Below, in pieces: positions 9,054 to 10,367 of a stretch of DNA of 47,861 nucleotides. The notes beneath the pieces were generated by a model, which searched no databases, was not told the DNA's origin, and saw only the letters and a program-made list of their open reading frames with translations. The translations under genes were made by a program, and so were the position numbers. Positions within the stretch are counted from its first letter, which is position 1, and each line of letters begins with the position of its first letter. Origin of the DNA: Bradyrhizobium sp. (GTDB taxonomy: Bacteria; Pseudomonadota; Alphaproteobacteria; Rhizobiales; Xanthobacteraceae); assembly GCA_028290305.1 (NCBI GenBank), contig JAQGKC010000258.1:1-47861 (forward strand). The letters run 5' to 3'.

Positions 9054-9895
9054 GGGATAGCCCGAACCCGCTGCTGTCCGATGTTCTAAGTGCGTATGCC
9101 GACGAGAAACTAGCCGGCAAACCCAGCGAAGCTCACATTCTTTACGACATCGGCCATTTGACAAAATGGTGGGGCACAAAATGCGTCGCGGATATCAACT
9201 CGACCACCTGCAAGGCTTACGTCAAGCACCGCAACGGCATTGTCTCGGCCCGGCGCGAGCTGGCGTTCCTCGGGGCGTCCGTCAAGCATTGGCACGCAGA
9301 GCATGGGCCATTGAAGGCTGTCCCGGTGGTTGTCCTGCCGCCGGCCCCGCATCACCGGGAACACTGGATGACGCGGGAGCAGGCCGCCCGGTTTCTGTGG
9401 GAGGCTCGCAAGAAGTCCCCTCACCTGGCCCGGTTCTTTATCATCGGCTGGTACACCGGAACGCGCCGCTCCAAGATCTGCGGGCTTCGCTGGTCCATGA
9501 TCGACTTCAAGACCAGGATCATGCAGCGCCGGCCGCCCGGCGAGCCGGAGGCCAAGAACAAGAAGGCCCCGCCGGTCAGGATGGGCGAGCGGCTGATGGC
9601 GCACCTGAAGCGGTGGAAGCGGCTGGACGGCAAGAAGGCCGAGTTCGTCATCACCTACCAGGGCAAGCGGGTGAAGAACCCGATCAGGATATGGGACGAG
9701 ACCCGGATCGCCGCAAAGCTGCCGACGTACATCACGCCGCACATTCTGCGGCACACGCGGGCTACGAACATGATGCAGCAGCGGAAGGACCCGTGGGAAT
9801 CCTCCAAGGCTCTTGGCATGTCGCTGGATATGTTAACTAAGAGGTATGGTCATCACCACCCTGATTGGCAAAAAGATGTCTCAGAAACAAAGTGA
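8891..9895 (+). CDS. int: Tyrosine recombinase (phage integrase)
   Basis: 334 residues. An N-terminal arm/core-binding part (about 1-150) is followed by a catalytic domain. GWYTGTRRSKICGLRW carries the first catalytic arginine (R192), PHILRHTR gives H284 and R287, and TKRYGHHHP supplies the nucleophile Y319. The fifth position reads ALGMS (no His), which I recall as usual for this rhizobial integrase subgroup. The protein mediates attP x attB recombination, so the phage is temperate. Its C-terminus, WQKDVSETK, is repeated at the end of the gene inserted immediately downstream (see 9876). The start was chosen as the first ATG giving the SSGPKLWFDKARNSW arm. Confidence 0.9.
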   Translation: MPRRSSGPKLWFDKARNSWTIIDGRKRSRTGFGAEETARAEEALGHYIASKHTIRDSPNPLLSDVLSAYADEKLAGKPSEAHILYDIGHLTKWWGTKCVADINSTTCKAYVKHRNGIVSARRELAFLGASVKHWHAEHGPLKAVPVVVLPPAPHHREHWMTREQAARFLWEARKKSPHLARFFIIGWYTGTRRSKICGLRWSMIDFKTRIMQRRPPGEPEAKNKKAPPVRMGERLMAHLKRWKRLDGKKAEFVITYQGKRVKNPIRIWDETRIAAKLPTYITPHILRHTRATNMMQQRKDPWESSKALGMSLDMLTKRYGHHHPDWQKDVSETK

Positions 9896-10367
9896 TTTGA
9901 TTTGTTCGGTCCCGGCCTGCGACGCGCGTTGTCGCTGCCGAGGGCTATGCGCGATCCATTACGCTCGGCAGCTAAAGTACGGCGATCCCCATGTAAACAA
10001 AAAGCCGGGGTGGAAAACTAAGCACCCGCTGCATGGCGCTTGGAGGGCAATGATCGGCCGGTGCGATAACCCCAATCACACGAGCTACCCTCAATATGGT
10101 GCGCGCGGGGTGACGGTATGCGCTAGATGGCGACATTTCGAGAATTTTCTCGATGACATGGGAGAGAGGCCGAGTGGGATGACGCTGGACCGCATCGACT
10201 CCGATGGACCCTATTCGCCAGAAAACTGTCGCTGGGCGACGGCAGCGGAGCAGCGCGCGAACCAGTCTGCGGACGGCAAAGAGCGGCAGCGAGTGGCAGT
10301 CAGCGCCGCGGCAACCCGGCAATGGGCGAAGCGCAGAGCTGCCAAGGACGTTTCGGAGACCCGTTAA
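9876..10367 (+). CDS. HNH/AP2-type homing-endonuclease-like protein (copy 2) at the integrase 3' end
   Basis: 163 residues from ATG 9876, overlapping the integrase end by 20 bases. The N-terminal zinc-like segment is CSVPACDARCRCRGLCAIHY (10-29). The core is W-x-AMIGRC (56-63), YPQYGARGVTVCARW (71-85), FLDDMGERP (91-99) and TLDRIDSDGPYSPENCRW (103-120). This is the same family as 1496. The last seven residues, KDVSETR, match the integrase C-terminus KDVSETK, with every shared codon changed only at its third base. I infer insertion of a mobile endonuclease gene that carried or created a substitute 3' end for the integrase. Confidence 0.75.
   Translation: MSQKQSDLICSVPACDARCRCRGLCAIHYARQLKYGDPHVNKKPGWKTKHPLHGAWRAMIGRCDNPNHTSYPQYGARGVTVCARWRHFENFLDDMGERPSGMTLDRIDSDGPYSPENCRWATAAEQRANQSADGKERQRVAVSAAATRQWAKRRAAKDVSETR

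Follow-up and report, generated by a model that had tools for sequence, protein, structure and literature searches.

An HNH endonuclease gene with a recoded replacement C-terminus at the 3' end of a phage integrase gene: a probable homing element

Mobile endonuclease genes called mORFs have been described in fungal mitochondria, in atp6 of Allomyces and in atp6, atp9, cox2 and nad3 of Glomus (PMC3630166), and atp6 and cox2 of Phlebia radiata have been discussed likewise (PMC4019555). In the passages of the first paper that deal with mORFs, a LAGLIDADG or GIY-YIG endonuclease gene at the 3' end of an organelle gene is accompanied by an in-frame substitute C-terminus, similar in protein and divergent in DNA, and the displaced native end lies downstream and is closest to insert-free relatives; between the C-terminal copies of Glomus atp6, identity is 63.5% at the DNA level but 91% at the protein level, and their changes are called synonymous against a close relative (PMC3630166). 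The locus described here shares this arrangement. However, its endonuclease is of the HNH type and its host gene is a phage gene, the HNH gene overlaps the integrase end, and the native end is fused to the enzyme. Because the HNH gene lies beside a phage integrase, rather than being a LAGLIDADG or GIY-YIG gene in mitochondria, we regard the element as a variant that works in a like manner and not as a member of the mORFs.

Among phages, the free-standing endonuclease genes of T4 are comparable in lacking an intron and, for segC, mobA and mobC, in overlapping the upstream ORF by 20-24 bp, but the enzymes cut hundreds of bases or more away from where their genes are inserted, and the relevant parts of the account do not describe a substitute C-terminus (PMC2988022). 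In ShiLan, HNH genes are inserted out of frame in phage methylases, for which the authors weighed an intron-like signature; as in our case, the HNH gene lies in another frame within a conserved phage gene, although the insertion is internal and the host frame runs through it (PMC11855218). Just past the insertion site, the host protein has 11 residues similar to the first 11 of the inserted gene when these are read in the host frame (PMC11855218), which by analogy may be the same substitute-copy trick. No report of a substitute C-terminus in phages was found among the best PMC matches, which do not cover subscription papers, nor in the pertinent sections of PMC10111431, PMC10448857, PMC11855218, PMC12724721 and PMC2988022.

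Our analysis of the window (the whole 47,861-nt stretch of DNA) makes it very probable that a phage integrase gene has received, at its 3' end, an HNH homing-endonuclease element with a built-in recoded replacement C-terminus. The features are as follows (all on the + strand).

8891..9895, +, phage tyrosine integrase gene, 334 aa, with native body and substituted 3' end (PF00589, E 2e-16; phrog_1, E 1e-37; 681 homologues)
9827..9895, +, recoded substitute for the integrase 3' end, spanning codons 313-335, with Tyr codon 319 at 9845-9847 (from synonymous differences against the insert-free relative L001, and GC3)
9876..10367, +, HNH endonuclease gene of 163 aa when read from ATG 9876, its frame being open already at ATG 9846 (phrog_374, E 1e-39; AF2 model, pLDDT 94)
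9882..9983, +, zinc-finger-like N-terminal part of the HNH protein, residues 3-36
10002..10268, +, HNH nuclease core, residues 43-131
10344..10367, +, original integrase end (KDVSETR and stop), displaced and now closing the HNH gene (from nucleotide identity with the relatives L001, L004 and L002)
10368..10470, +, native sequence that follows the integrase gene (from alignment with the DNA after the insert-free L001 integrase)

The integrase ORF is complete to a TGA stop at 9895 and ends in YGHHHPDWQKDVSETK, that is, KDVSETK, so that the substitute C-terminus is in phase with the host gene, as in mORFs. The HNH frame overlaps it by 20 bp when counted from the internal ATG and ends in AAKDVSETR at 10367. 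The six residues shared by the two 3' ends, which had drawn the attention of the first-pass annotation, do not have a single codon in common (0/6). Between the two ends lies an insert of 448 nt (9896-10343) occupied by the HNH frame; two more mechanically called ORFs overlap it (9972-10322 on the - strand and 10204-10458 on the + strand). Assignment of the protein to the HNH family is based on phrog_374 and six more PHROGs named HNH endonuclease, while searches of Pfam and NCBIfam gave no match; its AF2 model matched the fold of HNH nucleases, PacI among them, weakly, and a Foldseek search of the PDB found nothing at E 0.001 or below.

Some integrating elements restore the 3' end of the gene that they enter, as phage 21 does in icd. 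An element of this kind, with its own integrase and att sites, was rejected here because the 448-nt insert is filled by the HNH frame. Mobile HNH genes are also often carried on introns and inteins, and a remnant of a spliced intron or intein might be considered, but we judge this very improbable: the integrase is complete and its stop precedes the main part of the insert, there was no Rfam match at E up to 0.1 in 8800-11400, and Pfam showed no intein match in the integrase and HNH proteins. Separately, the sequence ATGCTGGATTTTAGGCGCA at 10437-10455, 3' of the integrase, occurs in slightly altered versions in L001, L004 and L098 and could be a phage attachment site.

A scan of viral contigs yielded nine relatives of the integrase, eight of which extended to the 3' end. 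The integrase of L001 (88% identical in amino acids) has no insert and terminates in CAG AAGGACGTTTCGGAGACCCGT TAA ATTACC, that is, in WQ followed by KDVSETR with the codons AAG GAC GTT TCG GAG ACC CGT TAA, exactly as had been predicted for an uninterrupted relative. Window positions 10344-10367 are identical to the L001 integrase end at 24/24 nt, to that of L004 at 22/24 and to that of L002 at 21/24, and the HNH gene is absent directly behind the integrase in all three; the window's own integrase end agrees with that of L001 at only 14/24 nt, so here too, as in mORFs, the displaced end is the one closest to insert-free relatives. The sequence after 10367 also aligned, as anticipated, with the DNA behind the L001 integrase. 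From the identity of the end and the aligned downstream DNA we conclude that the native end was displaced to a position after the HNH gene, and the proposed insertion at the integrase 3' end, with fusion of the native end to the HNH gene, is borne out. The retained part comprises the last seven codons and the stop, whereas native codons 313-327, some 45 nt, have been lost, and the original end thus survives only partly. Chance or convergent C-terminal peptides would deserve some thought, since six residues are short and controls also gave weak tail matches, but we give this explanation practically no credence: the identity to L001 runs through 30 consecutive nucleotides, across the stop and into the downstream DNA as far as 10373, and insert-free relatives refute chance both here and, with conserved synteny, at a portal locus described below.

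Neither of the outcomes that the first-pass annotation had named as contrary to its reading was encountered. The integrase homologues do not end differently as a rule: among the 120 listed of 681 integrases, PDWQ occurs near the C-terminus in 117, the final residue is R in 113 (35 of which end exactly in KDVSETR) and K in 5. In a tree of 54 integrases (the window and 53 of the 120 listed homologues, with the tail left out), the four rows ending in ETK imply four independent changes, the rows closest to them ending in R, a result that is supportive only, because K alone can arise by mutation. The sole other HNH protein seen to end in KDVSETR, P0138, is probably not at an unrelated locus but beside an integrase: P0138 and P0019, an integrase ending in KDVSETK, are each on a contig of 1664 bp and, because of this equal length, probably on the same one.

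The substitute is present as claimed, but it is longer than the six codons first noticed, covering about 21 codons (313-333, plus K and the stop; nt 9827-9895), and it is synonymous except for the last residue, where R has become K. Compared with L001, 17/19 of the codons capable of synonymous change differ in codons 313-333 against 92/253 in codons 1-312 (Fisher P 6e-6); the corresponding numbers are 13/17 in the tail against 79/219 in the body for L004 (P 0.001) and 12/15 against 94/188 for L002 (P 0.02). In pairs of insert-free integrases the same stretch is conserved (5/18, 5/16 and 6/17 synonymous codons changed). Against an expectation of 11.75 at saturation, the 17 tail differences are in excess with uniform codon choice (P 0.006), with integrase codon usage (P 6.5e-5) and with AT-rich usage (P 0.018), which favours, but does not prove, selection for difference; as the excess is only moderately significant, it does not separate selection for immunity from long drift or from constraints on a start region. 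GC3 is 0.35 in the recoded end and 0.79 in the integrase body, and GC is 0.39 in the recoded end and 0.61 in the HNH part. The low GC and the position of the HNH ATG (9876) within the recoded stretch would suit an integrase end made AT-rich and recoded as the translation start region of the HNH gene and not for escape from cleavage. We consider such a start-site constraint improbable, since the recoding starts about 50 nt 5' of the ATG and affects nearly all codons, and since the displaced second end would be left unexplained.

If an HNH gene starts inside an integrase end, a frame-shifted integrase tail is expected in the N-terminus of its protein, and we applied this N-terminal frame test to 122 HNH proteins. 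The window, P0121 and P0165 agreed at 16/16 positions including the stop, all others at 8 or fewer and shuffled sequences at 10 or fewer, suggesting that the HNH genes of P0121 and P0165 also begin inside integrase ends, as judged at the protein level, from which the results on P0121, P0137, P0138, P0144, P0150, P0165 and similar proteins come. For P0121, assuming that its integrase ends in GHHHPDWQKDVSETK and stop, the inferred codons match 12/16 of the recoded codons of the window and 2/16 of the native codons; for P0165, over G320-D329, they match 9/10 recoded and 2/10 native codons, and its last codons are of another integrase lineage. The HNH proteins of P0137 and P0150 begin with MSNK, which fits AAT GTC AAA TAA in the shifted frame, so that their integrases are predicted to end in NVK. 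These comparisons of proteins suggest that the recoded end belongs to the element and moves with the HNH gene. Neither P0121 nor P0165 has a convincing integrase tail at its C-terminus, and the in-frame fusion of the native end to the HNH gene therefore appears incidental.

An alternative is that the HNH gene came by ordinary recombination with a distant phage, the donor's integrase end being carried along in the conversion tract and owing its divergence to no selection. The recoding is just modestly above saturation, and free-standing phage endonucleases do convert flanking DNA, according to the part of PMC2988022 on this process; moreover, DNA was compared for L001, L002 and L004, and a donor could exist among the 120 listed homologues. 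Against it, the tail is largely common, by inference from protein, to P0121, whose HNH protein is only 69% identical to that of the window, and the composition of the tail departs from both the integrase body (GC3) and the HNH part (GC). We therefore hold mere donor divergence to be rather unlikely.

In the homing-element reading that we prefer, the element consists of the substitute integrase end, which gives the same protein but for one residue from different DNA, and the overlapping HNH gene. After insertion, the upstream integrase runs into the substitute end and stops at 9895, giving a full-length protein, presumably a working one, and the old end is shoved downstream, where its last seven codons are by chance in the HNH frame and become the HNH C-terminus. 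The sequence comparisons demonstrate insertion, substitution, displacement and recurrence. We infer that the HNH enzyme cuts the native end and that the element is copied by break repair; it would presumably recognise conserved DNA at the codons of YGHHHPDWQ, including TAT at 9845-9847 (codon 319), which we take to encode the catalytic tyrosine of tyrosine recombinases, and the cut is predicted to lie between codons 313 and 321. Since almost all codons of the substitute are changed, the copy within the element should escape cutting, and as the target overlaps the presumed active site, hosts could not easily alter it. Translation of the HNH gene may be coupled to that of the integrase at their overlap.

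Arrangements of this kind recur. Integrase-like C-termini scoring at least 36 were found in 11/122 HNH proteins, compared with 1/122 reversed tails and 1/122 internal windows; the window's HNH protein itself scores 34, and the C-terminal match of P0165 (score 42, one of the 11) was judged spurious. Ten other HNH proteins thus appear to bear displaced integrase-like tails, which span several integrase lineages (KDVSETR; H[AMS]PDWQKDAANVR; HHHPDHQKAAAEV; HHHAEFQKQAADA and others). By eye, the retained tails mostly start directly after Tyr-Gly, which suggests a cut at or near the tyrosine codon; those of the window and P0138 start later, at K328. Insertion at integrases is rare: in a second-tail scan of 139 integrase loci, some of which share a contig, the window alone was convincing and the others were chance-like (scores 30-36). 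A related integrase was upstream in none of 80 viral HNH loci, a distant integrase being downstream in ten, and nothing was found in viral contigs with two DNA patterns (the recoded overlap, and HNH plus PDWQKDA tails). In the Bradyrhizobium family, 6 of 391 whole genomes contained a close integrase (E 1e-60) and 8 of 391 an HNH relative of P0150 (E 1e-8), and no second tail was found within 160 nt past the stop of the integrases of L219, L230, L232 and L220 (four of six such loci). At L098 (3681-4136), an intact integrase is followed by a repeat of its N-terminus joined to a nuclease-type domain (MUG113/T5orf172), which may be another kind of mobile element in this gene.

Displaced tails were also found behind other phage genes. 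In L249, the portal gene ends in GSADPGKQGTR and is followed by an HNH gene ending in GSANTGKQGFANQ; its insert-free relative L250 (89% identical in amino acids) ends in GSTDAGRQGFKNS, and downstream DNA of the same kind lies behind the L250 portal gene and behind the L249 HNH stop. The codon is kept in just one of the seven shared residues, and the first ATG of the HNH gene is behind the portal stop, that is, outside the tail. A survey covered 194 HNH ORFs at 183 loci, picked as relatives of HNH genes and not at random, and 347 distinct pairs of upstream ORF and HNH ORF; we looked for the upstream tail again behind the HNH core, near a stop in both places, with a cut-off score of 34. Nine of the 347 pairs reached at least 34 (none when reversed) and six at least 38 (again none), the window pair scoring 31, under the cut-off. 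Eight pairs were accepted on inspection.

L291, terminase large subunit gene
L274, Mu-F-like head gene
L325 (Acinetobacter phage AP22), Mu-F-like head gene
L065, integrase gene of a second family
L284, small HNH-like gene (phrog_131; DUF968 below cut-off)
L234, small HNH-like gene, by resemblance
L245, unnamed gene
L062, portal gene, with no relative in the phage collection

Matches at L288, L323 (phage D3) and L332 were too weak to be taken as displaced tails, and that at L035 represents two HNH paralogues. When, as a wider control, 3265 pairs involving ORFs unmatched by the HNH model were scored, 20 passed the cut-off of at least 34 against 12 reversed; the HNH excess over this control is significant (P 0.001), although single weak matches in the survey are unsafe because non-HNH pairs also pass. 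A search for repeated tails over any adjacent ORFs at all loci gave 166 matches against 145 in reversed controls and was discarded as noise. Among the best control matches, L316 (2860-3830) has an endolysin tail SLVFFIKSIISKIK that occurs again as DLVFFIKSIISKLKK behind an I-HmuI-like HNH frame, whose flanks look like a DNA methyltransferase.

A convincing displaced tail was present in 1/17 HNH regions of named phages, that of AP22, most of which is contained in 8/80 matched phage records. AP22 and YNAF have the Mu-F-like head gene, then the HNH gene and then a relic of the type RCRKKLIIEIPD. Of five relatives without the HNH gene, IME-AB2 ends in NCRCRKKLIIEIPESMA, the expected native-type end, and AQ1, whose slot is occupied by a Rha-like gene, ends in NCHCRAKLIIEIPDNMV, also of native type; AB1 and Scipio have the AP22-type tail, with the slot filled by short ORFs of no known family, and the head gene of SPB has another end. 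Either several elements use this slot, or the HNH gene was lost in AB1 and Scipio.

We propose tentatively, as a reading that may well prove too broad, that phages widely harbour a class of mobile HNH elements which replace the C-termini of conserved proteins by settling at the 3' ends of their genes (those for integrases, portal, terminase, head morphogenesis and small HNH nucleases), with the recoded end selected to resist the element's own enzyme and the native end left as a relic. The AB1 and Scipio tails and the yield of one in 17 among named phages weaken this reading slightly. Such elements would show how a selfish nuclease can reside inside a conserved gene without intron or intein, by synonymous replacement of the severed part; many loci with an HNH gene next to another gene, and C-terminal variation of phage proteins that is now unexplained, would be their footprints. 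Synthetic recoded-rescue gene drives home into a conserved gene and supply its recoded remainder, and the elements would be a natural counterpart of these; the window's element, similar in its working, is natural, uses no guide RNA and belongs to a phage. The evolution and breakdown of recoded rescues, a live question for gene drives, could be tested in such a natural system. The signature, a gene tail occurring twice, before and after a nuclease gene, is searchable in phage genomics and may account for variable C-termini in phage proteins.

Several minor observations concern 3' ends of other phage genes. The 3' end of the Obolenskvirus head gene (L333, L335, L336 and L337) carries an HNH gene, a Rha-like regulator or short unknown ORFs, with tails differing by phage, and looks like a hot spot. 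At L092 (1424-2328), the peptide ALAPEQDK ends three consecutive small ORFs, and at L165 (829-2328) the ORF behind a phrog_874 gene matches this family in its C-terminal part only.
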